From NCBI GenBank assembly GCA_017513185.1, contig JAFXGL010000015.1, positions 1 to 64,000 on the forward strand: a stretch of 64,000 bases of DNA, in the 5' to 3' direction. Under the pieces are notes generated by a model. That model saw only the letters and a list, made by a program, of their open reading frames with translations, was not told the origin of the DNA and did no database searches. The translations under genes were made by a program, and so were the position numbers. Positions 338 to 14,110 of this stretch are shown in pieces (within the stretch, counting starts at the first letter, position 1; the number at the start of each line of letters is the position of its first letter). The DNA is from Candidatus Saccharimonadota bacterium. GTDB lineage: Bacteria; Patescibacteriota; Saccharimonadia; Saccharimonadales; Saccharimonadaceae.

Positions 338-629
338 TTTTAGCTCCTTTGTTTAGACTTATTAGGTCGTTCGTCCAAACTTACGAGCTGATACTTTTTA
401 AGTATAGCATACTAGACACTCAAACTAAAGTTTGATATGCTAGGCTCGGGATGCTTTAAAGTCCCGAGTTCTATTGTGAAAAAAATCTGATGTGGCTTGC
501 CACATCAAAAGTACTTTTGATTTCACTCTTATGTTGTTCTCGGAACTCGGGGCCTTAGGGCGTCCCTTTATGTTATTGTAACGAATTTTTGAGGCTAAAA
601 AAAATTTTTGACAATGCTAATGCTTTTTT
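338..629. other. Intergenic region with three stem-loops
   Basis: I see no gene. An inverted repeat at about 402-436 pairs TAGCATA/TATGCTA and TCAAACT/AGTTTGA. A hairpin CTCGGG...CCCGAG spans 446-469, and GATGTGG-cttg-CCACATC spans 491-508. The minus-strand leader of the YhcG remnant occupies about 340-395. Confidence 0.5.
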
Positions 630-1289
630 CTACACTTGAGGTGTAGCGCCGGGCTTGGTGTGAAAGAAGGAGAAGAGCTTGGGGGCGGCGGTTTTGTTGA
701 GGCTGATGAGGAGGTTGATGTAGGTGTTGACGCGGGTGATGGAGAGATCGTCGTCGAGCCAGAGAAGCAGGACTTCGTGGAACTGGGCGCAGAAGAATTG
801 GTAAAGGCCGGCGACGACTTGGTCGCCGTAGAGGCGCCAAGGCTCGGCGAGCAGGGGTTGGAGCGGAGCGAGGGCGGTGGCCCAGTAATTGGCGCTGCCA
901 AAGCGGCGGATGCAAAATTCGCTCTCGACCGGCGAGATGGTGAGGTATTTAAAAGTCCAAAAGAGGGCGGTGTCGAGAGAGTCGTGGAGGGGTTTGCTGG
1001 CGAGGTAGTCGGCGAGGCCGTCGATGAGATTTTTAGACGACCAGTAAAGCAGGGAATTGATGCCCATGAAATTGCCATAGAAAGTCTGGCGGGTGACGCC
1101 GGCCTGATTGGTGAGTTCGCGTAGTTCGGTGGGGATGTAATCGTCGCCGTATTTGTTCATGAGTTCGAGAAAGGCGGCTTCGCAGCGGACGAGAAGGCGG
1201 GGGGAAAGATTTTTATTGCGGCGCGAGTCGTCTACTAGGGCGAGCTCGTAGGGCCGAGAGAAAAGTTGTTTGTTTTGGTAATTATTCAT
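630..1289 (-). CDS. TetR-family transcriptional regulator next to the DGR target
   Basis: 219 residues. The N-terminal part carries a TetR-type helix-turn-helix (about residues 52-85: PTELRELTNQAGVTRQTFYG, followed by an aromatic-rich helix). The remaining all-helical region would be the ligand-binding and dimerisation domain, with no recognisable ligand signature. It is divergent from the DGR target gene, with a 123-bp gap that contains two copies of a TACAC-N5-GTGTA palindrome. A third copy overlaps the last codons of this gene. The arrangement suggests that it represses itself and the target (inference). Start chosen at the only ATG before the HTH. Confidence 0.85.
   Translation of the reverse strand: MNNYQNKQLFSRPYELALVDDSRRNKNLSPRLLVRCEAAFLELMNKYGDDYIPTELRELTNQAGVTRQTFYGNFMGINSLLYWSSKNLIDGLADYLASKPLHDSLDTALFWTFKYLTISPVESEFCIRRFGSANYWATALAPLQPLLAEPWRLYGDQVVAGLYQFFCAQFHEVLLLWLDDDLSITRVNTYINLLISLNKTAAPKLFSFFHTKPGATPQV
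631..645. promoter_or_regulatory. Operator-like palindrome at the 3' end of the TetR gene
   Basis: TACACTTGAGGTGTA, a perfect TACAC-N5-GTGTA inverted repeat that differs by one spacer base from the one at 1354-1368. It spans the last codons of the regulator, so it could be a secondary operator or a roadblock. Inferred from sequence only. Confidence 0.5.
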
Positions 1290-1412: not shown

Positions 1413-4400
1413 ATGAATACTAACCATAAGTTGGGCAGCGTCCGGGAACTGGCGCTGTTTGGTAGGCTGTTGCGAGGCTCGCTCATCGCGACGGCGGTTT
1501 TTGCGCTCGCGTTTGTCGTAGCGCCATATATAATGAGTGAGGTAAATGCGGCGAATAATGTTTCGTCGGTGATTACCTGGAGTGCAATAGACCTCACGCT
1601 AGACCCGGACGTGGTAGCGACGAGTGGTGCGGCGGACCCGGCGGCAGAGCAGGCGCTTTCTACGCATGGTGACGTGGAGTTTGGCGGGATTGTGCCGACA
1701 GCCAAAAATACCACGGCTGGCGACTACGGGACGCTAAAAGTAGAACGAAAAACCATCGGTGTAACCACGCGAGGAAAATATTACACCGTCTTCCTATCCA
1801 TGGAGGGGTCTAACCAAAACCTCAACTTGACTTATAATAATGCGACGGATACCAATGTAAAAATTGAAAAGACGAGCGGTACCTGGGCCAGCCCGAAGAC
1901 GCTGGCGCAAAACGGTACGAGCGGCTGGGGTTACATGGTGCCAGGGGCGACCACGAAAGATAGCAGTGGTAATGCGAGTCCCTTTGCTAGCTTGACGCGG
2001 TCGGGAGTGAGTTCGACGTTTAACGGGAAGCTAGACACGGCGCTATATAGAGCTGATGGTGTGGCCTATACGAGCAGTATTTGGGCGGCGGTGCCGGTAA
2101 GCACGAGTGCGCAGCAGATTTGGAAGAATACTACGGATGCAGGTGCGGGCTTCTCCGCGCAAGATACCTTTGATGTGTACTATGCGGTGAACGTAGATAC
2201 GGATGTCCTCTCGGGAACTTATCAAAACAATGTGGTCTACACAGCGTTGGCTAGTGCGGCAAGCCTAGACAACTATAGCACGAACCTGGTGCGGACGCTG
2301 AAATTCGGTGCGAGTGGCAATAGAGAAACATTATACTTTGACCTGGCACAGATTGGCACGCCGGTGACGGCAGACAAAATTGAGGTGAAGATGGTGCCGC
2401 ACAACGAAATGACCGCGAGCGGGGTAGACTTTGACCCGAGCAAGCTGAGCAGTGCGGTGCTGAGTGCGGCGCTGGAATGCGATGTGGATGAAAGTAGCTT
2501 TGAGACGGTGACGGCGACGCAAGATGGTCGCAGCGGAAGTACGAGCAAGATTGAGTGTGAACTACCGACCGGAACGGTGGCGGATGCTTTGGCTTCGACC
2601 AAGGGTGATGGCGCATACGACTTTATCTTGACGATTGACGGGTTGAACTATACTTACGTGAGCAAGATTAATGATGGTGCGGAGCCAGGGTTTGTATACG
2701 CGGGTCTGCAGAGTGCGGACGATACGGCAAATGCCAGCAAGTATGTGAAGAACATGCAGGAAATGACAGTAGGTGTGTGTGAAAATACTAACCGATGGGA
2801 TAATGGACTAGGTAGTGACGCGAAGCTTTATACTCCGACAGCGTCTAGTGGTCCGGCAGATGGCGGGACGCAGATTACGAGTGGGGTGACAATTGGCACG
2901 ACGGCGGATGGCGTAGGTAGCTTCGCGCTGAAAGATACGCGTGATGGCAAGAGGTATGTAGTGCGACGCTTGGCGGATGGGAATTGCTGGATGGCGCAGA
3001 ACCTCAACCTAGATTTGTACACGGGTATGACTCTCACAAGCGAGGACACGAACTTGACCAGTAGAGATAACTGGGTGTTGACGGATTCGGCTAGTAGTAA
3101 TAACGAAACGGCGATTTCTGCGGATACGAATGCGGCGTGGGTGGCGGACGCAGGTTCTATTTCTAGAGCTTGGCAGAGTAGCCACGGGGTGGGAACAGTG
3201 ACGTTGAAGAGATATACCTACAATGATGTGAGCGGGGAATGGGAGTCGAGCATTATTGCGCAGTGTACTGGTGGTACGCAGCAGGCTCCGTGTTATGCGT
3301 ATACTACGGGGAATACCTATTATAAGGATGTGGCTGGCGTAGAAACAGCAGTGACGACTGAAATAGCAAAGACCGATGGTTATACGAATACGGGTAGTGG
3401 TAATCCTGGTAGTCCGGTGCGCGGGTTTAACGCAGGGGCATACTATGGTAAAGTGACCTATCAAGTAAGAAAGGTGACAAACGCTCTCGGAAGTGCGTGG
3501 ACTTACAGCAACATTGGTTATTCTACAATTGATAGTAACGTGGTGGACAATAGCGCAACTTGTACTTTTGGCTTCTACGGTGACCACTTGCAAGGAAATA
3601 CCGCGTGTGTGTTGGAAACTTCTGGCGATACGATGTTGACACAGTTTGATAATATTGGCATGAATGGCTATGGTATGGGTGTGACGAAAATTACCAAGGC
3701 GGCTGATAATGCGACGGCGATTGATTTTATGAACAATACTGGTAATTTGACGGCGAATCAGATGGAACAGAACGGAAACGATACGGTGGTGTGGCCGTAT
3801 GCTACCAACGCCGGTGATTATCGCTGGCATAGGCAGGGTAGAGACGGCGTGCACGTACACGACTGGGGTCCGACGTATTATAATTATACGCAGACTAGCC
3901 CGACAACGGCACCGTCTTACACTGGTACTAACCAAGCCTGCGCGAACATTGGCACTACGCAAGGTACGTTGAAGCTAAGTGATACTACGCTGAGCTTTAC
4001 AAGCTGCATGGATGGAAGTGGTGCGAATGCGGAAGCGCTGGCGGATACGCGAGTGGATGGTAACTGGTATAACTGGTATGCGGCAGTGGCAGGTAGTTCT
4101 ATCTCGGACTTCAATAATGAAAATGCAGCAGATTCTATTTGCCCGAAGGGATGGGAATTACCGAAAGATTTGCCAGATGGCAATGCAAGTACGGCAAATA
4201 CGTTTAATCATGGCGATGTGATTTTCCCGAGCTTCTATACTTTGTTAACGAAGAAGACGAGCAAGCTTGCGACAGCGTTGAATATCAGCGAAACCGATGC
4301 AGCAAAGAGGACCTATTATCTGCCTAATAACTCTGATAGTGATTTGGATGCTACGAGAACGGATTATCCGTTACATGCCTTCCCGCTTTCCTACGTCCGT

Positions 4401-4589
4401 AGCGGCGACTACGCCTGGAACTCCGGCGGCCTGGCCAATCGCGGCGGCTACGGCTACTACTGGTCGGCAGCTACCTATAACGCTAACAGCAGTCGCTACC
4501 TCCGCTTCTACGCCTCGAACCTGTACCCCCGCTATGGGTACAACAAGGGCTACGGCTTCGCGGTGCGCTGTGTGGCGTCGTCAGTATAG
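1413..4589 (+). CDS. DGR target: membrane-anchored FISUMP/C-type-lectin-fold surface protein
   Basis: 1058 residues from the ATG at 1413, which follows an AGGAGG site; an upstream in-frame ATG at 1323 lies before the promoter. A signal or anchor helix spans about residues 20-45 (LLRGSLIATAVFALAFVVAP). A long Thr/Ser/Asn/Gly-rich extracellular part follows. From about residue 500 come FISUMP motifs (DTRDGKRYVVRRLADGNCWM..NLN), then ICPKGWELP near 907. The C-terminal region (992-1058) ends YGFAVRCVASSV and is the VR. This fold family (FGE/FISUMP, C-lectin-like) is the usual DGR target and displays variable residues for ligand binding. The protein probably faces outward and binds a cell or polymer (inference). 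No sortase motif is visible. Confidence 0.93.
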   Translation: MNTNHKLGSVRELALFGRLLRGSLIATAVFALAFVVAPYIMSEVNAANNVSSVITWSAIDLTLDPDVVATSGAADPAAEQALSTHGDVEFGGIVPTAKNTTAGDYGTLKVERKTIGVTTRGKYYTVFLSMEGSNQNLNLTYNNATDTNVKIEKTSGTWASPKTLAQNGTSGWGYMVPGATTKDSSGNASPFASLTRSGVSSTFNGKLDTALYRADGVAYTSSIWAAVPVSTSAQQIWKNTTDAGAGFSAQDTFDVYYAVNVDTDVLSGTYQNNVVYTALASAASLDNYSTNLVRTLKFGASGNRETLYFDLAQIGTPVTADKIEVKMVPHNEMTASGVDFDPSKLSSAVLSAALECDVDESSFETVTATQDGRSGSTSKIECELPTGTVADALASTKGDGAYDFILTIDGLNYTYVSKINDGAEPGFVYAGLQSADDTANASKYVKNMQEMTVGVCENTNRWDNGLGSDAKLYTPTASSGPADGGTQITSGVTIGTTADGVGSFALKDTRDGKRYVVRRLADGNCWMAQNLNLDLYTGMTLTSEDTNLTSRDNWVLTDSASSNNETAISADTNAAWVADAGSISRAWQSSHGVGTVTLKRYTYNDVSGEWESSIIAQCTGGTQQAPCYAYTTGNTYYKDVAGVETAVTTEIAKTDGYTNTGSGNPGSPVRGFNAGAYYGKVTYQVRKVTNALGSAWTYSNIGYSTIDSNVVDNSATCTFGFYGDHLQGNTACVLETSGDTMLTQFDNIGMNGYGMGVTKITKAADNATAIDFMNNTGNLTANQMEQNGNDTVVWPYATNAGDYRWHRQGRDGVHVHDWGPTYYNYTQTSPTTAPSYTGTNQACANIGTTQGTLKLSDTTLSFTSCMDGSGANAEALADTRVDGNWYNWYAAVAGSSISDFNNENAADSICPKGWELPKDLPDGNASTANTFNHGDVIFPSFYTLLTKKTSKLATALNISETDAAKRTYYLPNNSDSDLDATRTDYPLHAFPLSYVRSGDYAWNSGGLANRGGYGYYWSAATYNANSSRYLRFYASNLYPRYGYNKGYGFAVRCVASSV

Positions 4590-4640
4590 CTCCCCGCCCC
4601 CTCTCGGGGTCGGTTCCGGTCGGGTTCCGTTCCCCTAGGT
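4385..4640 (+). repeat. DGR variable repeat (VR)
   Basis: 256 bp aligned without gaps to 5016-5271 (offset 631). There are 16 mismatches, all at positions that are A in the template, between 4407 and 4550. They change 13 codons, all AAC/AAT in the template: to Tyr eight times, Ala twice, and Asp, Ser and Arg once each. After the stop codon (4587-4589) the copies stay identical to 4640, including a hairpin CCCCG/CGGGG at 4592-4609. The first difference after that is at 4641. Confidence 0.97.
4592..4609 (+). other. Stem-loop just after VR coding part
   Basis: CCCCG (4592-4596) pairs with CGGGG (4605-4609) across an 8-nt loop, 3 nt after the target stop codon. In characterised DGRs a hairpin or cruciform just 3' of VR promotes mutagenic homing. 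The same hairpin is present in the template copy (5223-5240). Confidence 0.55.
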
Positions 4641-5015
4641 TTCTGGAAACAGCGATTGGAGGCTGGGCGGGGAAGTACAACAAAAAAGTTCAAACAAAAA
4701 ACTAACCAATCCGGATGGGCCGGCGTGAGCCGGCCCGCCGTGAGGGGCAAACTAGAGAAGTCAGCTCTGGAGCTAAAAAAATTAGACCTAGAGCTGACGT
4801 CTCGAGTGGGACGTCTGTTCTAGACACGGAGCATCCTGCGACTACACACGCATGCTAGCTCCCCGCAAAAGAACTTAGAGAAACCAGGAGCCCACTCTTA
4901 TTTAGAGTACTGAAGGAGGCAGTATACTCCCTGTCTCCATGGCCGGTCCTTACGGGGATCGTCCTGAGTGAGAGGCTCCTTGGGCGGATTCACCGTCTGT
5001 TGCGATTTACGCCGG
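4641..5015 (+). ncRNA. Structured VR-TR spacer, probable 5' part of the TR RNA
   Basis: No gene is visible in these 375 bases. Stem-loops include GGGCCGG/CCGGCCC (4717-4736) and GTCAGCTCT/AGAGCTGAC (4760-4798), followed at once by GACGTC...GACGTC. GC-rich pairing continues to about 5000. I see no clear promoter, so the TR RNA may arise by read-through from the target gene or from a non-consensus promoter. The role as DGR template RNA leader is inferred from position. Confidence 0.45.
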
Positions 5016-5271
5016 GCTTTCCTACGTCCGTAGCGGCAACTACAACTGGAACTCCGGCGGCCTGAACAATCGCGGCGGCAACGGCAACTACTGGTCGGCA
5101 GCTACCTATAACGCTAACAACAGTCGCAACCTCAACTTCAACGCCTCGAACCTGAACCCCCGCAATGGGAACAACAAGGGCAACGGCTTCGCGGTGCGCT
5201 GTGTGGCGTCGTCAGTATAGCTCCCCGCCCCCTCTCGGGGTCGGTTCCGGTCGGGTTCCGTTCCCCTAGGT
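5016..5271 (+). repeat. DGR template repeat (TR)
   Basis: The non-coding donor copy of VR. In the VR frame it would read ..GNYNW.. to ..GNGFAVRC.., rich in AAC codons. AAY codons are favoured in DGR templates because adenine randomisation reaches many residues and never makes a stop. The pattern of A in TR against A/C/G/T in VR defines the reverse-transcriptase-driven mutagenesis direction. The TR lies between target and accessory genes and is followed within 15 nt by an intrinsic terminator. Confidence 0.97.
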
Positions 5272-5284
5272 CTCTCTGAGCGAG

Positions 5285-5313
5285 AAAAAGAGGGCTTGAA
5301 TGGCCCTCTTTTT
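5285..5313 (+). terminator. Intrinsic terminator after TR
   Basis: The stem AAAAAGAGGG/CCCTCTTTTT, with its T-tract, should end the TR transcript. It separates the template RNA from the accessory/RT mRNA. The -35 box of the next promoter (TTGAAT, 5296-5301) sits in its loop. Confidence 0.85.
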
Positions 5314-5325
5314 GTGTGATATAAT
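5296..5325 (+). promoter_or_regulatory. Promoter of the DGR accessory/RT operon
   Basis: TTGAAT (5296-5301), an 18-bp spacer, TATAAT (5320-5325). The predicted leader contains GTTTGAACGGACGACCTAA, closely matched by the leader of the YhcG remnant on the other strand (about 345-385), and ends with an AGGAG site before the ATG at 5398. Confidence 0.7.
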
Positions 5326-5397
5326 GGAGGAAGATTGGTTAGCCAATTATACGTTTGAACGGACGACCTAAAAAGTTCAACTATAAGAGGAGACCAA

Positions 5398-6192
5398 ATG
5401 AAGGAACAACTTTCTAAAGCTTCTAAGCAGAGCGCTCGTCAGAGGTACGATAAGCTTAAAGCGGAGGTAGCGAAGCTAGAGAAGCAGAATTTTTCTAGGA
5501 TTATCGCCTTTAGGAGCGGGGCGAGCGGGGAGTGGTATAAAATAGGGGGAAATTCGATGCTGATATATTATTATGAGGTATGTCAGAAGATTTTGAATGT
5601 GCGGCCAAATATCCAGGCGGACACGGATTTTTCTACGACGAATTTTGACGCGGGGGTGATATGCGTGCGGGGGCTGGACGTGCTGGAGAAGAGGCTGGTG
5701 CGGGCGGAAGTGCTGAAGGCGAAGCGAGTGGGGAAGAGCGGAGTGGTGGTGTTTGAGCTGAAGATTGCCGTGCCGGAGCCGGTGATGAAGCAGCTAAGAG
5801 ACGATACGCTGGAGATGCAGGAGCAGGCGCTGTCGGTGGTACGGCCGAAGGCGATGCTGGACCCGGAAGTGTATAATACGTTGCGGCATCTACAGAAGCG
5901 GACCTATGAGGAGGCGCGCAAGATGACGGACTATGAGCGGGCGTATGTGGGGCTGGAGGCGGCGCGGACGAGCCGAGAGATGACGGAAGTGTATTTTGCA
6001 ATGAATGTGGGGATGGAGGCGGACAGTGCAGTGGGGTGGAGGAAGATTTATGCGCTGGCGAATAAGTTGACATTTCTGCTAAACTTTATGACGGATCTGA
6101 AGATTGCGCCGGTGCAACCGCTGGCACGGCTGTGGGATGATTTGACGTCGCTGATAAGATATATAAAGAAAAATTATTTGATGGGAAAATAA
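5398..6192 (+). CDS. avd: DGR accessory protein, probable MutS-like (MSL) + Avd fusion
   Basis: 264 residues, twice the size of a typical Avd (about 110-130). The C-terminal half (about 160-264) is four predicted amphipathic helices (YNTLRHLQKRTYEEAR; YERAYVGLEAARTSREM; WRKIYALANKLTFLLNF; ARLWDDLTSLIRYIKK), like the four-helix Avd bundle that binds the RT and template RNA. The N-terminal half (about 15-120) is alpha/beta and resembles MutS domain I in layout (RYDKLKA.., an aromatic YYYEV segment, then LDVLEKRLVRAEVLKAKRV). MutS-like accessory genes are known in DGRs. The Avd part is well supported by context; the MSL part is inference. It is 22 nt upstream of the RT. Confidence 0.8.
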   Translation: MKEQLSKASKQSARQRYDKLKAEVAKLEKQNFSRIIAFRSGASGEWYKIGGNSMLIYYYEVCQKILNVRPNIQADTDFSTTNFDAGVICVRGLDVLEKRLVRAEVLKAKRVGKSGVVVFELKIAVPEPVMKQLRDDTLEMQEQALSVVRPKAMLDPEVYNTLRHLQKRTYEEARKMTDYERAYVGLEAARTSREMTEVYFAMNVGMEADSAVGWRKIYALANKLTFLLNFMTDLKIAPVQPLARLWDDLTSLIRYIKKNYLMGK

Positions 6193-6214
6193 TTAACAAA
6201 ATAAGGAGGAAAAA

Positions 6215-7315
6215 ATGGACGAAAACTTTAGAGGGTGGTTACTGACCGAGCTAGTGAAGGCGTATTTGGAAGCGAGGAAAGGAAAAAGACGGACGGGGGA
6301 CGAACATGTGTTTGAGATGAACGCGATGGAAAATTTGGTGAATTTGCGCGATTCGATAATGGCAAGGACATATGTGCCGAGTCGCGGGATTGCCTTTGTG
6401 ACGCGGAAGCCGGTGATACGAGAGATATTTGCGGCGCCGTTTAGGGATAGAGTGGTGCATCATTTCTTGTTTAACATGGTGGCGGGATGGTGGGACCGGC
6501 GGCTGATAGACGATTGTTATTCGTGCAGAGTGGGGAAGGGGACTTGGTATGGGGTGAAACGGATGGTGAAGCATATGCGGGCGGCGAGTGAGAATTATAC
6601 GGTGCCGACGTATGTGGTGAAGCTGGACATACGCGGGTATTTTATGTCACTAGATAGGCAGAGGCTGTTTGATAAGGTGGTGTGGGGGCTGGATAGGCAG
6701 TTTGCCTCTCGCGATGAATTGTATTGGACGCTGAGGTTTTTGTGGCGGCAGATTATCTTTGACGACCCAGTGAGGGGTGTGAAGCGGAAGGGAAGCCCAA
6801 GGGACTGGCGAGATTTGCCGAGGGCGAAGAGCCTGTTTTGCCAGCCGAAGGGGAAGGGAATAGTGATAGGTAATTTGTCTTCGCAGCTGCTGTCGAATAT
6901 ATATCTTTCTAGTCTGGACCGGTATGTGATGAACGAGTTGGGATATAAACATTATGGGAGATATGTAGATGATTTTTATTTCTTTGTGCAGGCGAAAGAT
7001 TTGCCGAAGGCACTGAAGGACGTTTTGAAGATAGAGGAGTTTTTGGCGGGGCTGGGGCTGACCCTACACCCGAACAAGCGGTATGTGCAGCCGATAGAGC
7101 GGGGCGTGGCGTTCCTGGGGACGCGGGTGTATCCGGGGCACGTGGTGGTGGGGGAGCGAGTGGAGGGGAATTTCCGGAAGTGTATACGGGATTTCCAGGC
7201 GGGGAATAAGGACGTGCAGTCAGTGGTGAGTTATCTCGGGTTTACGAAGAATTTGCAAGGCCGCAAATTTCTGAAAGATTTGTTTAGCGAGTGCGGGTGG
7301 GAGTATGAGATGTAA
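6215..7315 (+). CDS. DGR reverse transcriptase
   Basis: 366 residues. Motifs in order: IREIFAAPFRDRVVHH (motif 1); VVKLDIRGYFMSLDR with catalytic D138 (motif A); FCQPKGKGIVIGNLSSQLLSNIYL, the SQ-type motif 4 typical of DGR RTs in place of the retroviral QG; YVDDF at 250-254 (D252, D253, catalytic); GLTLHPNKRYVQPIERGVAFLG (motifs 6/7). There is no fused maturase, endonuclease or X domain, which rules out group II introns and retrons. It reverse-transcribes the TR RNA with adenine infidelity to make the cDNA that replaces VR. The ATG at 6215 follows AAGGAGG. Confidence 0.95.
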   Translation: MDENFRGWLLTELVKAYLEARKGKRRTGDEHVFEMNAMENLVNLRDSIMARTYVPSRGIAFVTRKPVIREIFAAPFRDRVVHHFLFNMVAGWWDRRLIDDCYSCRVGKGTWYGVKRMVKHMRAASENYTVPTYVVKLDIRGYFMSLDRQRLFDKVVWGLDRQFASRDELYWTLRFLWRQIIFDDPVRGVKRKGSPRDWRDLPRAKSLFCQPKGKGIVIGNLSSQLLSNIYLSSLDRYVMNELGYKHYGRYVDDFYFFVQAKDLPKALKDVLKIEEFLAGLGLTLHPNKRYVQPIERGVAFLGTRVYPGHVVVGERVEGNFRKCIRDFQAGNKDVQSVVSYLGFTKNLQGRKFLKDLFSECGWEYEM

Positions 7316-7810: not shown

Positions 7811-7829
7811 TTTGTGATATAATATGCTT

Positions 7830-9572
7830 ATGGATGAGAAGCGTCTGAAGTTTTTGAAGATTATGCTTTACGTCGTGGCGGGGGTGATTGTGGGGCGGCT
7901 TTTCCAGATACAGATTTTGCAGAAGAATGAGTGGGTGGCAAAAGCGGAAGCGCAACATACCTTTGAGAATAAAATTCCGGCGAAGCGCGGAGAAATCTAC
8001 ATGATGGATGGAAGCGAAGCGGAGCCGGTAGTGATGAATGAACAAGTGTATACGGTGATAGTAGACCCGTTTGAAGCGGATGAGAGGAAGATAAAAGAAA
8101 CAATCTTTACGGAGGGAATGAAAAATTATCTGACGGTCGCTGAGGCGAACGAAGTGTTTGCGGATAAGACGCGGCGGTATTTTGTGGTGGCGAAAAATGT
8201 GCCACGAGAGCTGGCGCAGAAAATTCGTGAAGCAGAGCCGGGAGCAGTGTGGCTACGGGAAAATACCAAGCGAGTATATCCGGAAGGACAGCTAGCGGCG
8301 AGATTGCTAGGCTTTGTGAACGAGGATGGGGAGGGGCAATATGGTGTGGAAGCGGCACTGAACGAAGAGCTGTCCGGTAAAGACGGAATGCTGAAAACCG
8401 TAGCGGACGTGAACCACGTGGCGCTTTCTATCGGGAAAGACAATGTGAAGGTGCCGGCGGAAGATGGAAAAAACGTGGTGCTATCTATAGACAAAAATAT
8501 CCAGGCGGGGGTGGAGAAGATTTTGGCGCAGAAGATGGCGGAATTTGGGAAGGATCAGGCGTCGGCTCTGGTGATGGACCCGAGGGACGGGACGGTGCTA
8601 GCGATGGCGAATTTGCCGAGCTATGACCCGGCGAACTATGGCAACGTGGAGAGCGCAGAAGTGTATGTGAACCGAGTAACCAGTGACCCATATGAACCAG
8701 CGAGTGTGTGCAAGGGCTTTACCTTTGCGACAGGGATAGACCTGGGCGTGCTGACGCCGGAGACAGTATTTTATAATAATGGCTATGAAATGATAGACGG
8801 GTGGCAGATTAAAAACTCGACTTATGGGCGGAGTGATTTGCTGGGGCCGACGACAATACAAAATGCGTATAACTGGAGCCTGAACACGGGGAGCATCTAT
8901 GCATTGAAACTGCTGGGTGGAGACCCGAATCAAATCACGGTGAAGGGACGGAAGATATTATATGACTATTATGTGAACCATTTTGGGTTAGGGAAGCTGA
9001 CGGGGATAGAACTGTTTGAAGCGGAAGGGTTGATAAACGACCCGGAGGTGGGGGATGGACGCGACTCGATGTATGCCAACATGACGTTTGGGCAGAACTT
9101 GATGGTGACGATGATACAGGTGGCGAGCGGGTATAGCGCGCTGGTGAATGGCGGTGAGTACTATACGCCGACGGTGGTGAAGGGCTACATGGAAGACGGG
9201 AAGCTGGTAGAGAAGGAAAAGGCAGGGCCAGTGCGACGGGCGGTGAGTGAAGAGACGAGCACGACGATGCGACGAATGATGTGGGGGACGCGAGAGCTGA
9301 TGCGGGCGCAGGGAATTGACCGTGCGGGATATGACGTGGGCGGAAAGACGGGGACGGCGCAGGTGATTCGCGACGGTGCGTATTCGATGGATGAATGGGT
9401 GGCGACATATGTGGGATATGGTGGGGCGACTGGGCAGATGCCGCAGTATTTGATAATGGTGAGGATTTGGAAAGACGGGGAAACGACGGGTGCGGAGCAG
9501 TATGCACAGCCGGTGTTTAACGATATTTCTAACTTTATGATAGATTATTTAAAAATTAAGCCAGGAGTGTAG
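7830..9572 (+). CDS. ftsI: Penicillin-binding protein 2/FtsI-type transpeptidase
   Basis: Class B PBP that cross-links septal peptidoglycan. One N-terminal transmembrane helix, a dimerisation/pedestal domain, then the transpeptidase domain. Counting from the ATG at 7824, the motifs are S294-V-C-K297 (in YEPASVCK, catalytic Ser), S352-L-N354 and K508-T-G510. The TATAAT at 7818-7823 abuts that ATG, so I prefer the ATG at 7830, which gives a leaderless mRNA. It heads a cluster with mraY, ftsW, murG and an ftsQ-like gene. The Val-Cys inside the SxxK motif is less usual than Thr-Phe/Met. Confidence 0.93.
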   Translation: MDEKRLKFLKIMLYVVAGVIVGRLFQIQILQKNEWVAKAEAQHTFENKIPAKRGEIYMMDGSEAEPVVMNEQVYTVIVDPFEADERKIKETIFTEGMKNYLTVAEANEVFADKTRRYFVVAKNVPRELAQKIREAEPGAVWLRENTKRVYPEGQLAARLLGFVNEDGEGQYGVEAALNEELSGKDGMLKTVADVNHVALSIGKDNVKVPAEDGKNVVLSIDKNIQAGVEKILAQKMAEFGKDQASALVMDPRDGTVLAMANLPSYDPANYGNVESAEVYVNRVTSDPYEPASVCKGFTFATGIDLGVLTPETVFYNNGYEMIDGWQIKNSTYGRSDLLGPTTIQNAYNWSLNTGSIYALKLLGGDPNQITVKGRKILYDYYVNHFGLGKLTGIELFEAEGLINDPEVGDGRDSMYANMTFGQNLMVTMIQVASGYSALVNGGEYYTPTVVKGYMEDGKLVEKEKAGPVRRAVSEETSTTMRRMMWGTRELMRAQGIDRAGYDVGGKTGTAQVIRDGAYSMDEWVATYVGYGGATGQMPQYLIMVRIWKDGETTGAEQYAQPVFNDISNFMIDYLKIKPGV

Positions 9573-9586
9573 TAAAATAGAGAGGT

Positions 9587-10618
9587 ATGTGGAAAATAGA
9601 AATTAACAACGAAATGTTTTATGGGCTAATATTGACGTTGGGCGCATTTTTGCTTTCGATGTTTTTGACGCCGGTATATACATATTTTGCATACAAATAT
9701 AAGTTTTGGAAAAAGCAGAAAAAGACGACGGCGCAGGGGGAGGCGTTGCCGATTATGACGAAGCTGCACGCGCATAAGTTCAAACGGCACTTCCCGACGA
9801 TGGCGGGGATTATCGGCGTGGTGGTGGTGACGCTAGTGACGCTAATTTGCAATCTAGACCGTGGGCAGACGTGGTTGCCACTGGCAGGCTTTCTCGGTGG
9901 GGCGGCGGTAGGATTTATTGACGATTTAATTAACGTGTTTGGCAGCGGGGAAGGGGCGGCCGGGTTGCGCGCAGGCTCGAAGCTGCTGCTGATATCTATC
10001 GTAGGGGCGGTGCTGGGATGGTTCTTTGCGGTGAAGCTAGGATGGACGGAGGTGATGATACCGTTTGTGGGGAGCGTGGAGATTGGCGTGGTGGGGATGA
10101 TTGCGCTGTTTACCTTTGCGGTGGTGGCGACGGGGAATGCCACGAATATTTCTGACGGGCTGGACGGGCTGGCCGGGGGGCTGATGATGCTAGCCTATGG
10201 CGCATATGGGGTGATAGCGCTGTTCCAGGGGCAGTGGATGTTGTTTGGCTTTTGTATGACGGTGGTGGGGTGGCTACTTTCCTATGTGTGGTTTAACGTG
10301 CCGCCGGCGAGGTTTATGATGGGGGACACGGGCTCGTTTGCGCTAGGCGCGGGCTTGGGTGTAGTGGCGATGATGACGAATGCATTTTTGCTGTTGCCGG
10401 TGATTGGGGTGATGCTGGTGGTGGAGGCGGGGTCTTCGCTGTTGCAGATGGCTTCGAAAAAGTTCTTCCACCGCAAGATATTTATTTCTGCGCCGATACA
10501 TCATCATTACGAAGCGAAGGGGTGGGGGGAAGCGAAAATCGTGATGAGATTTTGGGTGTTGGCCGGTATTGCCGCAGTGCTTGGGATGTTTATCGCTTCT
10601 GCTTGCGGGATTGCATAA
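9587..10618 (+). CDS. mraY: Phospho-N-acetylmuramoyl-pentapeptide transferase
   Basis: Makes lipid I from UDP-MurNAc-pentapeptide and undecaprenyl phosphate in the membrane. 343 residues, about ten transmembrane helices. Signature motifs: FIDDLIN (D112-D113), NATNISDGLDGLAGG (around D190) and GDTGSFALG (D247), plus the HHHYEAKGW loop. It starts 15 nt after ftsI. Its last codons lie in the left arm of foldback E7. Confidence 0.96.
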   Translation: MWKIEINNEMFYGLILTLGAFLLSMFLTPVYTYFAYKYKFWKKQKKTTAQGEALPIMTKLHAHKFKRHFPTMAGIIGVVVVTLVTLICNLDRGQTWLPLAGFLGGAAVGFIDDLINVFGSGEGAAGLRAGSKLLLISIVGAVLGWFFAVKLGWTEVMIPFVGSVEIGVVGMIALFTFAVVATGNATNISDGLDGLAGGLMMLAYGAYGVIALFQGQWMLFGFCMTVVGWLLSYVWFNVPPARFMMGDTGSFALGAGLGVVAMMTNAFLLLPVIGVMLVVEAGSSLLQMASKKFFHRKIFISAPIHHHYEAKGWGEAKIVMRFWVLAGIAAVLGMFIASACGIA

Positions 10619-10727
10619 TTCGGGATATTTCTTCGTCAAAGCCTCCGTTGCTCATTCGACGTACCATTAAGTACGTCTCGTTCCGCTACTCAGCTTTTCC
10701 TTGAACTATCTCCGAATTCTGCAATCC
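10608..10727. repeat. Foldback element E7 between mraY and ftsW
   Basis: GGATTGCATAATTCGGGATA (10608-10627) pairs imperfectly with the arm at 10707-10727. An inner hairpin is GACGTAC-cattaa-GTACGTC (10658-10677). The left arm includes the mraY stop codon. No T-tract, so it is not a classical terminator. Confidence 0.65.
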
Positions 10728-10759
10728 TCAATCTAATATATGATATAATTATAAGCATA

Positions 10760-11971
10760 ATGCGTAAACATCGCGGTGATAGAATTATTCTGTTTACAAC
10801 ATTTATTTTGTTAATTGCGGGGCTGATTATTATTTATGCGATTGGGCCGATGCGGGCGAATTTTTTGAATGCCGCATACGGGGGTGATATTTCTGAAAAT
10901 CATTTTTTCATAAGACAGCTGGTGAATGTGATTTTGTCTATCGCGGCGTTTGTAGTGGCGGTGAAGCTGCCTTATGAGACGACGAAAAAGCTGGGGAAAT
11001 GGATATTGCTGGCCGGGATAGTGCTGAGTGTGGCACTATTGGTGTTGGCGAAGACAGGGTCTTCACTCGCTAAGTGTGAACTGGGGGCGTGCCGATGGAT
11101 AAACATCGGGAGCTTTGGTAGTTTACAGCCGGCGGAGTTTTTGAAGCTGGGGTTGCTGCTGTATTTATCGCAGTTGGCGGCGAGCCGGAAAGCGGATGGA
11201 ACACTGAACAAGAGTGACTTTTGGCTGCCGGCGGGAGTGGCGAGCGTGATTTCTTTGGCGCTGGTGGTGGTAGTGCAGAAAGACCTGGGGACGGGGGTGG
11301 TGATAATTGCGATAATTCTCGCTACGATTTTTGCGAGCGGGGTGGAAATGAAAAAGTTTGCGCTGGTGATGGGGGCGATACTGGTGGCAGCGGTGGGGGT
11401 GATTGTGACGAGTCCGCACCGGGTGGAGCGGGTGCGTACGTTTATTAACGGTGATGGAGCGGATACGTATCATATTGAGAATGCGATGATTGCTATCGGT
11501 ACTGGTGGGCTGACGGGCGTGGGGGTAGGGAACAGCGTGCAGGCGACTGGGTATTTGCCGGAGAGTATTAACGACTCGGTGTTTGCGGTGATGGGGGAGA
11601 CGTTTGGATTCTTAGGCCTGACGGCCGTGGTGGTGATATTTGTGGTGATGCTGACGAGGATTATGCGAGTGGCGGAACTGGCGGCGACAGAAGAGCAGCG
11701 ACTGGTGGCAGTGGGGGTGTTTGCGTGGGTTGCGGTGCAGATGGCGGTGAACATTATGGCGATGACGGGGCTGATACCGCTGACGGGGATTACGTTGCCG
11801 CTGCTATCTTATGGCGGGACGAGTATGATGTTTGTGGCAGTGGCGCTAGGTGTGAGTTATCAGCTTTCGTGCTATACTAAAAGGGAAAAAGAACTCGCGC
11901 AGAAAAAGTTTTCTAGCGGACATTTGAAGAAGAGGAGGCTGAATGAAAATTCTAGTAGTAGGCGGCGGTAG
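10760..11971 (+). CDS. ftsW: SEDS-family lipid II polymerase/division protein
   Basis: 403 residues, about ten transmembrane helices. The SEDS signature IPLTGITLPLLSYGGTSM is near residue 345, with VVQKDLGTGVV and a periplasmic GDGADTYHIENAMIAIGTGG loop. Polymerises glycan strands with its partner PBP (ftsI upstream). The TATAAT at 10744-10749 lies 10 nt before the ATG, so the leader is nearly absent. The 3' end overlaps murG by 29 nt. A basic C-terminal tail (KKRRLNENSSSRRR) is cytoplasmic. Confidence 0.95.
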   Translation: MRKHRGDRIILFTTFILLIAGLIIIYAIGPMRANFLNAAYGGDISENHFFIRQLVNVILSIAAFVVAVKLPYETTKKLGKWILLAGIVLSVALLVLAKTGSSLAKCELGACRWINIGSFGSLQPAEFLKLGLLLYLSQLAASRKADGTLNKSDFWLPAGVASVISLALVVVVQKDLGTGVVIIAIILATIFASGVEMKKFALVMGAILVAAVGVIVTSPHRVERVRTFINGDGADTYHIENAMIAIGTGGLTGVGVGNSVQATGYLPESINDSVFAVMGETFGFLGLTAVVVIFVVMLTRIMRVAELAATEEQRLVAVGVFAWVAVQMAVNIMAMTGLIPLTGITLPLLSYGGTSMMFVAVALGVSYQLSCYTKREKELAQKKFSSGHLKKRRLNENSSSRRR

Positions 11972-13154
11972 CGGCGGACATATCACGCCGGCGATTGCGG
12001 TGGTGCGCGAGATTTTGGCGCTGAAGCCGAGGGCGCGGGTGGAATTTTGGACAGATAGGAAATATTATAAAAATGTAGTAAAGCTGACGGTGCTAGGGAA
12101 GGGGGACATTCCGATGAAGGTGCGGAAGGTGTGCTCGGGGAAGTTTCGCCGGTATGCGGGGTGGAGCTTGAAAGATTATTTTGTGGCGTGGCGGGTGACG
12201 CTGGTGGATTTGATATTTAAGAACATATTAGGATTTTTTGGATTTTTGGCGGGGGTGGTGCAGAGTTTTTGCCGGCTGGTCGCTAAAAAAGAGCGGCCGG
12301 ACGTGATATTTTTGAAGGGCGGATTTGTGGGGCTGCCGGTGGGGATAGTGGCGAAGTGGCTGAAAATTCCGTATGTGATACACGAGAGCGATGCGACACC
12401 AGGACTAGCGAATAGGATTTTGATGAAGCGGGCCAGTAAGGTGGCGATGGGGGCGAAGTTCGACTCAGATGTGCCGGGTAGGGAAAAGTGGGTGTGGACG
12501 GGGACGCCGATACGTGAAGAGTTCCGGAAGGTGTCAGCGAGCAGGGAAGGAAGCCTGAAGAAAGCGTTCGGTTTTTGTTCTGATAAGCCGTTGGTGGTGG
12601 TGACGGGCGGAAGCCAGGGGGCGAAGCACATCAACGAAGCGGTGGCGAAAGAGCTACCGGAGATGCTGAAATTTGCGGAAGTGGGGCTGGTAGCTGGGAG
12701 GAAGTGCTATGAAGAGATGACGGAGCTGAAGAAGTATGAGGACTGGGAGGATGGGAAGCTTACGAGCGGATTCCGGATGTGGGAGTTTAACTCGAACATG
12801 GCGGAGCTGCTAGGCGCGGCGGACATTGTGGTGTCGCGAGCGGGGGCGACGACAATAGCGGAGCTGGCGAGCCTGGCTAAGGCGGTGATTTTGGTGCCGT
12901 TTGGCGAGCTGCCGGGGGCGCATCAAACGAAGAATGCGGAGAGGCTGGCGGAGCTAGGCGCGGCGAGGATGATTGACGATGCGAAGCTGGTGGCTAAACC
13001 GGCGCTATTACTAGAGGAGGTGCGGGAGCTAACGAGAAGGCCGGCGGAGCGCAAGAAGTTGGCGGAGAAGCTGCATGAGGAGGCGAAGCTGGATTCGGCG
13101 AAGCAACTGGCGGAAATAGTACTAAACGTGGGCACAAAAGATGCAGGCAGGTAA
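11943..13154 (+). CDS. murG: UDP-GlcNAc:lipid I N-acetylglucosaminyltransferase
   Basis: Converts lipid I to lipid II at the inner face of the membrane. GT28 fold: GGGSGGHITPAIAVV at the N-terminus, IPYVIHESDATPGLANR in the middle, GGSQGAKHINEA at the start of the C-domain, and SRAGATTIAEL plus LPGAHQTKNA for the UDP-GlcNAc site. 403 residues, longer than the usual ~360 because of an insert around residues 60-95. The ATG follows GAGG within the ftsW 3' end. Confidence 0.95.
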   Translation: MKILVVGGGSGGHITPAIAVVREILALKPRARVEFWTDRKYYKNVVKLTVLGKGDIPMKVRKVCSGKFRRYAGWSLKDYFVAWRVTLVDLIFKNILGFFGFLAGVVQSFCRLVAKKERPDVIFLKGGFVGLPVGIVAKWLKIPYVIHESDATPGLANRILMKRASKVAMGAKFDSDVPGREKWVWTGTPIREEFRKVSASREGSLKKAFGFCSDKPLVVVTGGSQGAKHINEAVAKELPEMLKFAEVGLVAGRKCYEEMTELKKYEDWEDGKLTSGFRMWEFNSNMAELLGAADIVVSRAGATTIAELASLAKAVILVPFGELPGAHQTKNAERLAELGAARMIDDAKLVAKPALLLEEVRELTRRPAERKKLAEKLHEEAKLDSAKQLAEIVLNVGTKDAGR

Positions 13155-13695
13155 GACGATAGCAGCGAAACGGGAGCGAGTGGCGCCCGACAGCGAACGC
13201 GAGCGGGTGCGACGCGTGATTCATCGGAAGAAGATTTTGGCGATGGTGGGGGTGATATTATTTGCAGGGTTGCTGATATTTTTGGCAGTGAAAGCGTTTC
13301 AAGAGTGGGTGAAGTGGGCGACCAATAGGGAAGAGGTGGTGATAGTGGAGCGGGAGCCGAGCGTGGAGGTGATTGACGAGAGAACAGGGAAGGTGTTTGA
13401 CGGGAGCGAGGAGAGGAAGCTGAGTGCGAAGATGAAGGAGTATATTGCAAACCTGGAGGAAGAAATGGTGGCGCAGGGGCGTAAGGTAACGCGAGCGCGA
13501 ATACCGGCGGATAAAATTCGTGAGGTGGATGTGGAGGTGGAAGGTTTTACTGGAGTGATAAAAGTGTCTACAGATAGAAATCCGGCGGTGTCGGCGGAGG
13601 ATGCGGCGCGGATGCTGAAGTATCTGGAGGGGCAGGGAATTAGTGAAGTTACATATGTAGACGTGAGGGTTGAGAGAAAGGGATACTGGAAATAA
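13141..13695 (+). CDS. ftsQ: FtsQ/DivIB-like membrane protein
   Basis: 184 residues: a basic cytoplasmic N-terminus, one transmembrane helix (about 38-57, ILAMVGVILFAGLLIFLAV), then an extracytoplasmic part that ends YVDVRVERKGYWK. That ending resembles the terminal strand of FtsQ proteins (Y-I-D-L-R...YYK). Its place after murG (14-nt overlap) supports a division role. A POTRA domain is not convincing and the protein is short, so it may be a reduced FtsQ or another divisome factor. Confidence 0.55.
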   Translation: MQAGKTIAAKRERVAPDSERERVRRVIHRKKILAMVGVILFAGLLIFLAVKAFQEWVKWATNREEVVIVEREPSVEVIDERTGKVFDGSEERKLSAKMKEYIANLEEEMVAQGRKVTRARIPADKIREVDVEVEGFTGVIKVSTDRNPAVSAEDAARMLKYLEGQGISEVTYVDVRVERKGYWK

Positions 13696-13762
13696 TTTGG
13701 ATTTTATGTTATAATATAGTAACAATTGTTCTTTAAGAGCCAGCTAGTAAGGAGGAAGAGAA

Positions 13763-14110
13763 ATGGATTTTTGGACGGTCTTTGCAGGAATTGCTTGGGT
13801 GTTTGGTATTGGGTTGATAGCGTGGGTTGCGTTTTATGCGATCGTGTCCACGAAACGGCACGATTTGGAGGTAGCAGCGGATCTGGAGTATGAAGAGATG
13901 GAGGCGCAACGACGACTGTTGTCGGAGAGTACGGTTTCTTTTACGAGGCGAAATGTTTTGACGTCTGAAATGGAGCAAAAGCGGCGTAATAGACTATCTA
14001 CGGACGCGGGCAGGGAAATACTACGACTGGAAAGCCGGGGAAGACTAGTGTTTATACTAGGGGCGTTTGTGGGCGTAGTGGTGTTGATTGTGTATTTGAA
14101 GGTGAACTGA
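13763..14110 (+). CDS. Small two-helix membrane protein, unknown
   Basis: 115 residues. Helix 1 spans about 6-28 (FAGIAWVFGIGLIAWVAFYAIV), followed by a charged segment (30-90) and helix 2 at 93-112 (LVFILGAFVGVVVLIVYL). Own promoter (TATAAT near 13711) and an AAGGAGG site before the ATG. It ends with TGA, evidence that TGA is a stop here. No family recognised. Confidence 0.7.
   Translation: MDFWTVFAGIAWVFGIGLIAWVAFYAIVSTKRHDLEVAADLEYEEMEAQRRLLSESTVSFTRRNVLTSEMEQKRRNRLSTDAGREILRLESRGRLVFILGAFVGVVVLIVYLKVN

Follow-up and report, generated by a model that had tools for sequence, protein, structure and literature searches.

At positions 1413 to 7315 of the stretch of DNA analysed here (the window, 64,000 bases from the start of a contig of 73,852 bases) lies a series of genes and repeats that together form a diversity-generating retroelement (DGR). 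All of its parts are on one strand: a gene for a target protein of 1058 residues, a variable repeat (VR) at the end of that gene, a 375-base spacer, a template repeat (TR), a gene for an accessory protein of 264 residues and a gene for a reverse transcriptase (RT) of 366 residues. The preliminary description of this DNA had called the element complete, and our analysis agreed, as target, VR, TR, accessory gene and RT gene were all present. The genome consists of 755,095 bases in 16 contigs and is 99% complete. Every one of the 80 named relatives listed for the RT bore the title Candidatus Saccharibacteria or Candidatus Nanosyncoccus alces, and ruminant digestive tracts were the source of many of the closest among them; these titles point to a likely Saccharibacterium of an animal gut and, with what is generally known of the group, to a probable epibiont. 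The RT matched the Pfam family RVT_1 (E 3.4e-8) and a PHROG reverse transcriptase (E 1.8e-76). Its SQ-type motif 4 and YVDD, both named in the preliminary description, were borne out by these profile matches and by the motifs themselves: IGNLxSQ (x = S or T) and YVDD were invariant across 15 aligned RTs, that of the window included. The available part of Schillinger et al. 2012 (PMC3521204) describes the SQ motif as a mark of DGR RTs.

An independent repeat search recovered a direct repeat of 260 bases (4385-4644 and 5016-5275). VR (4385-4640) and TR (5016-5271) aligned without gaps, and all 16 mismatches fell on template adenines (8 A>T, 5 A>G and 3 A>C). With 52 adenines among the 256 template positions, the hypergeometric chance of this outcome is 1e-12. 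The first mismatch at another base comes directly after these two aligned stretches (4641/5272). TR holds one AAG codon besides its 19 AAC or AAT codons. The mismatches altered 13 codons, each of them AAC or AAT in TR, and eight of these became tyrosine. The re-alignment thus reproduced the gapless pair, the 16 adenine mismatches and the 13 codons reported earlier. Mutation of its adenines can turn an AAC codon into codons for 15 residues but never into a stop codon. The final 67 codons of the target lie in VR, together with the stop codon (4587-4589), past which the identity of the two repeats continues for 51 bases.

We surveyed the same pattern in a family set made up of the best 80 of at least 513 related places, the window and a second DGR of the same genome (82 loci). 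A template/variable pair was found in 65 of the 82. Several of the 17 loci without a pair lie at contig ends, and two of the 17 (L095 and L128) carry an asparagine-rich, template-like copy after the RT, with no VR found within the locus. Across the 65 pairs, 1366 of 1414 mismatches were at A, partly by construction, as the filter kept pairs with at least 80% of their mismatches on A. A control over the four bases set a minimum of 8 mismatches, 80% or more of them on one base. Here A passed in 64 of the 82 loci and C or G in 2; T mirrors A in this control because both strands were read. The pairs of L112, L144 and L155 measure 100 bases or fewer. In L112, the pair scan had swapped TR and VR, since the asparagine-rich copy is the one on the minus strand past the RT; under either assignment all 7 mismatches fall on A. 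In the genus as a whole, RT matches occurred in 98 of 175 genomes and more than once in 55. In this table count, some double matches come from a single RT broken into two pieces, and the best match is weak for 3 of the 98 genomes.

The preliminary description had assigned a FISUMP domain to the target, and both FISUMP profiles matched above their cut-offs (PF09603, 37.0 bits against 33.9; TIGR02145, 50.2 bits against 41.65). The domain is split, with a long insert between residues 506-541 and 951-1054. We regard the ATG at 1413 as the likely start because P0012, a near-identical protein considered below, begins at the same residue; the list of open reading frames had a GTG at 1323. As to the claim that the target is anchored in the membrane, the protein has a single N-terminal hydrophobic segment. 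Followed by VNA, this segment could equally be a cleavable signal peptide or an anchor, so that anchoring is one candidate reading of two. For comparison, 45 sequences were selected from 62 target open reading frames and database proteins; 34 of the 45 matched PF09603. Among the 62 reading frames, 43 were full-length and longer than 200 residues, and 40 of these 43 had a hydrophobic segment within the first 80 or so residues, while one had it elsewhere. The count of signal peptide motifs was scarcely above that in shuffles. No sequence relative of the target was found in the PDB at E <= 1, and no Pfam family for its N-terminal part at E <= 10. A model of the full-length protein had a mean predicted local distance difference test score (pLDDT) of 57, and the fold-search matches listed for it cover parts other than the C-terminus; in this low-confidence model, residues 50-281 weakly resemble fibre subunits. 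The C-type lectin-like fold suggested for the variable domain in the preliminary description is accordingly putative. With less assurance than for the copying steps proposed below, we infer that the target is exported and displays its variable FISUMP domain outside the cell.

In two published settings, comparable targets have been described. The available part of Ye 2014 (PMC4159848) reports FISUMP (Fib_succ_major) targets of DGRs from human microbiomes, the example being a predicted lipoprotein with an Mfa2 domain. Both proteins are predicted to be exported, and in both the likely site of diversification is a C-terminal FISUMP domain. In our target, by contrast, a long insert divides this domain, and no Pfam family covers the remainder. 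DGRs of the Patescibacteria/candidate phyla radiation (CPR) are likewise encoded by cells, in bacteria with small genomes (Roux et al. 2021, PMC8144416). In the portion of that paper available to us, the targets of CPR clade 2 typically have no recognisable transmembrane or other conserved domain. Leaving aside the clade placement of the present RTs, the 40 of 43 targets with a hydrophobic segment and the 34 of 45 with FISUMP differ from this picture.

It is reasonable to suppose, with the preliminary description, that such a protein may act as a host-binding adhesin. The strongest competing explanation accepts a working DGR but assigns the variable protein to phage evasion or to the binding of debris, sugars or sister cells, possibly as a secreted or fibre-forming protein. 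We grant this explanation a substantial chance, somewhat short of even. As an observation on its own, locus L132 has three consecutive reading frames at 2900-5300 that resemble the variable domain and carry different residues at the same sites; they are possibly several targets of a single DGR.

Natural variants offered a direct view of VR. A search with the target end, covering 5.8 billion proteins, yielded P0012, a cluster of 9 members, and three of the four matches of this search were aligned. P0012 and the target agreed at every one of the 991 residues outside VR. Within VR it was identical at all 37 adenine-free codons and at all 10 adenine-containing codons not starting with AA. It differed at 15 of the 20 VR codons starting with AA, and every residue there was reachable from TR by adenine changes only (Fisher P 1e-29). 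The second RT of the genome, on another contig, belongs to a second complete DGR (L024:8882-14026, G000:C11), with the target at 8882-11713, the accessory gene at 11818-12639, the RT gene at 12621-13772, and TR just past the RT, on the strand opposite to RT and target. The corresponding search for this target gave 34 proteins, four of which were aligned. One of them, P0016 (a cluster of 3 members), agreed with the second target at each of the 878 residues outside VR, and its differences were confined to 12 VR codons, all with a template adenine. Apart from P0012 and P0016, neither search gave a near-identical relative. More distant proteins (P0013 and P0014 against the window's TR; P0017, P0018 and P0020 against the second TR) had some VR residues unreachable from that TR, as one would expect if every species had a TR of its own. 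The preliminary description had set the comparison of VR between strains as a test that could refute it. Run here on two loci at the protein level, with one protein each, the comparison found that VR differs, and at adenine codons only, so that the description stood. As neither pair shows a single difference outside VR (991 and 878 residues), the changes within VR are recent by comparison with any in the rest of the targets.

These comparisons bear on two further explanations. The locus might be a DGR relic, with mutagenesis in the past and a VR that is now fixed, and a single genome alone cannot separate present from past activity. However, the two near-identical proteins depart from their counterparts only at template-adenine codons while the rest of each is unchanged, and the RT motifs are intact, which makes a relic very improbable. 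Less probable still is ordinary recombination between paralogous target genes in place of a DGR: the targets are large and modular, and P0014 is close to the window's target in parts and divergent in others, so that the gene may undergo some recombination, but a TR probe of the genome, about 99% complete, matched only TR, this VR and the TR of the second DGR, and P0012 spares every VR codon not starting with AA, with all its differences attainable by mutation of A.

We are highly confident that the locus is a complete DGR, likely active, in which the RT and its partner of predicted Avd fold likely copy TR with adenine errors; the product would take the place of the matching end of the target gene. 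In the mechanism that we propose, TR would be made as a separate RNA, composed of leader, TR and terminator, that recruits the RT and the accessory protein. The two proteins would then copy the adenine-rich template with errors at its adenines. The complementary DNA (cDNA) would be inserted into VR, with the stretch of identity beyond the stop codon as its guide. As a weaker last step, the variable FISUMP domain may bind partner-cell or other ligands outside the cell. The recognition of partner cells by very small, host-dependent bacteria remains an open problem, and this locus bears on it. Its target varies between two close copies at programmed positions only, and the genome has a second DGR of this kind, so that VR sequence can be compared directly with ligand range and partner range. 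The coordinates of all features are given in Table 1.

Table 1. Features of the retroelement, in positions of the window
Feature	Position	Strand	Basis
Target gene, FISUMP-type C-terminal variable domain, 1058 residues	1413..4589	+	Open reading frame; PF09603 and TIGR02145 above cut-off
N-terminal hydrophobic segment and VNA, candidate signal peptide or N-terminal anchor	1479..1550	+	Sequence, hydropathy
First FISUMP stretch, residues 506-541	2928..3035	+	TIGR02145 best stretch
Second FISUMP stretch, residues 951-1054, carries most VR codons	4263..4574	+	PF09603 best stretch
Variable repeat (VR), continues 51 nucleotides beyond stop codon	4385..4640	+	Repeat, adenine-only mismatches, differs in P0012
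Structured leader 5' of TR, likely 5' part of template RNA	4641..5015	+	Fold z -4.9; conserved with L084; short G003 match
Template repeat (TR), 19 AAC/AAT codons	5016..5271	+	Repeat comparison with VR
Terminator-like hairpin, begins 12 nucleotides past TR	5283..5315	+	Fold z -5.8
Promoter-like site TTGAAT-18-TATAAT, TG before it	5296..5325	+	Promoter pattern scan
Accessory protein, 264 residues: N-terminal alpha/beta domain (about 1-150) and predicted Avd-fold helical bundle (151-264)	5398..6192	+	
DGR reverse transcriptase, 366 residues	6215..7315	+	RVT_1 and PHROG matches; motifs
RT motif IGNLSSQ	6866..6886	+	Translation, RT alignment
RT catalytic YVDD	6962..6973	+	Translation, RT alignment

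The position of TR proved labile among the relatives. In 63 of the 65 pairs TR lies on the strand opposite to the RT, and the layout with all parts on one strand occurs in the window only. In 50 loci target and RT share a strand, with TR alone inverted, and in 13 TR and target are both opposite to the RT; L135 alone has TR on the RT strand and the target opposite. The inverted TRs lie within 384 bases past the RT (L112 after exchanging its copies). On a tree of RTs the window groups with L084 and L029 (support 100/96), and these three neighbours show three layouts. In L029, which is outside the 65 pairs, TR is divergent from the accessory gene and a near-copy lies opposite TR, with 25 of 36 mismatches at A over 261 untrimmed bases. 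Altogether, five layouts require 12 changes on the RT tree. With TR inverted so widely, its separate transcription is very likely in the majority of these loci. A TR that shifts around the RT gene separates the expression of TR from that of RT, and the different layouts provide natural variants for the reading of TR as a template RNA. Inverted DGRs, with TR, VR and target opposite to the RT, are described in the available part of Schillinger et al. 2012 (PMC3521204) as a rare event, with three cases, in Shewanella, Vibrio and Photobacterium. The loci surveyed here resemble them in the strand of TR, although the window itself is not inverted. They differ in that VR remains on the RT strand, TR alone being inverted, in 50 of the 65.

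We then considered the sequences flanking TR in the window. The stretch 4641-5016 folds far better than its shuffles (z -4.9, 0/100). This leader is conserved in L084, and a 37-base core of it is found in genome G003, whose RT is 64% identical. The consensus structure of the window and L084 leaders has 72 pairs, of which 11 are changed on both sides and none is broken. Its energy is far below that of column shuffles (z -8.7, 0/100). Because the compensating pairs are only marginal, 6 of 100 shuffles also reaching 11 two-sided pairs, we claim structure for the leader and no covariation. An Rfam scan of the leader gave nothing relevant. We rejected the leader as an RNA shared by the whole family, as beyond the window it matched only L084 among the 82 loci, and 3 of 172 genus genomes including its own. 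On the other side of TR, L084 has a hairpin at the same place as the window, with a different sequence (z -4.6). A simple scan for terminator patterns listed none. Another candidate, a hairpin after the stop codon of the target, was discarded, being no more stable than shuffles in either sequence (z -0.24 and -1.0). Scanning 4500-5500 for promoters returned 2 sites against 0.4 expected. One of them, the TTGAAT-18-TATAAT site, overlaps the hairpin that follows TR and precedes the accessory gene; it likely drives the accessory and RT genes.

The accessory protein would be the partner of the RT. Its C-terminal half (151-264) is predicted to have the four-helix-bundle fold of Avd, joined to another domain. 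No match to an Avd/S23 family was found for it in Pfam (E <= 1) or NCBIfam, nor among the 25 families that a capped list gave for 53 relatives, which were selected from 78 accessory open reading frames and database proteins. It would thus be Avd-like by fold, and not a member of the family by sequence. The fold-search matches listed for the accessory protein are filled by the helical half and barely cover the N-terminal domain. MutS-like accessory proteins of DGRs are one existing type. Between MutS domain I (nine MutS sequences) and the N-terminal domain, hhalign gave a collinear but weak match over 81 columns (P 0.0085, probability 4.7%), and with a single E. coli MutS sequence a probability of 0.95%; PF01624 was matched by 1 of the 53 accessory relatives (E 0.041). 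Among 60 genus genomes there was no match to MutS_V and none to MutS_I above cut-off (6 of the 60 had weaker matches), while 11 of 14 control genomes were positive for each. From these profile searches the genus likely lacks MutS-type mismatch repair, and such a loss, if true, would leave the mismatches made by the DGR uncorrected. One could imagine that the accessory protein fuses a captured mismatch-recognition module like MutS domain I to the Avd-like bundle, in a genus that lost MutS. Such a protein would attach to the cDNA:VR duplex at its adenine mismatches and influence the choice of the strand to be retained. Mismatch handling would then become part of the retroelement, but we consider this fusion unlikely. 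Among the papers listed by a literature search, none paired DGRs with MutS-like proteins, or with MutS and HRDC.

Comparison with the DGR of the Bordetella phage BPP-1 shows both likeness and difference. The two systems share an RT with an Avd partner (here a predicted fold), a TR near the RT gene, a target whose C-terminal end changes specifically at adenines, and parts on one strand. Unlike BPP-1, the present element is likely chromosomal in a Saccharibacteria-type genome, its accessory protein has an extra N-terminal domain, and the accessory gene lies between TR and RT, whereas avd precedes TR in the phage. According to the available part of a study of BPP-1 TR-RNA (PMC12875486), a structured spacer after TR primes cDNA there; here, by contrast, a terminator-like hairpin begins 12 nucleotides past TR, and the long structured part comes before TR. 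DGRs in this bacterial group are already known. The new points are adenine-restricted comparative evidence in two loci of one genome, a predicted Avd-fold accessory protein with a further domain, a labile TR position and a structured leader. In the accessible portions of the literature on Saccharibacteria/TM7 DGRs or retroelements we did not find this locus described; a description may stand in Paul et al. 2017 or Wu et al. 2018.

As regards the surroundings, a viral origin of the locus was considered and set aside, as neither phage records nor viral contigs gave a match, the contig search covering close relatives only. Downstream of the DGR, at 7824-13154, lie genes of cell-wall and division type; a transpeptidase among them was confirmed by Pfam, and others are presumably MraY, FtsW and MurG. 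What we take to be a MurA-like gene with a helix-turn-helix part and a UvrD-like helicase gene adjoin both the second DGR and the DGR of L029. Upstream of the target, a candidate TetR-like regulator (630-1289, minus strand) scored below the Pfam cut-off. Finally, an 18-base motif, TTTGRACGRACGACCTAA, stands upstream of the accessory and RT genes (5354-5371, plus strand), and an exact reversed copy (362-379, minus strand) precedes a 62-residue open reading frame that matches DUF1016_N. A third copy, with 2 mismatches, lies at G000:C6:14490-14507. In a control, 10 of 100 shuffles of the window gave at least 2 matches at 3 or fewer mismatches; both copies in the window are exact, and the motif is possibly a shared regulatory site.

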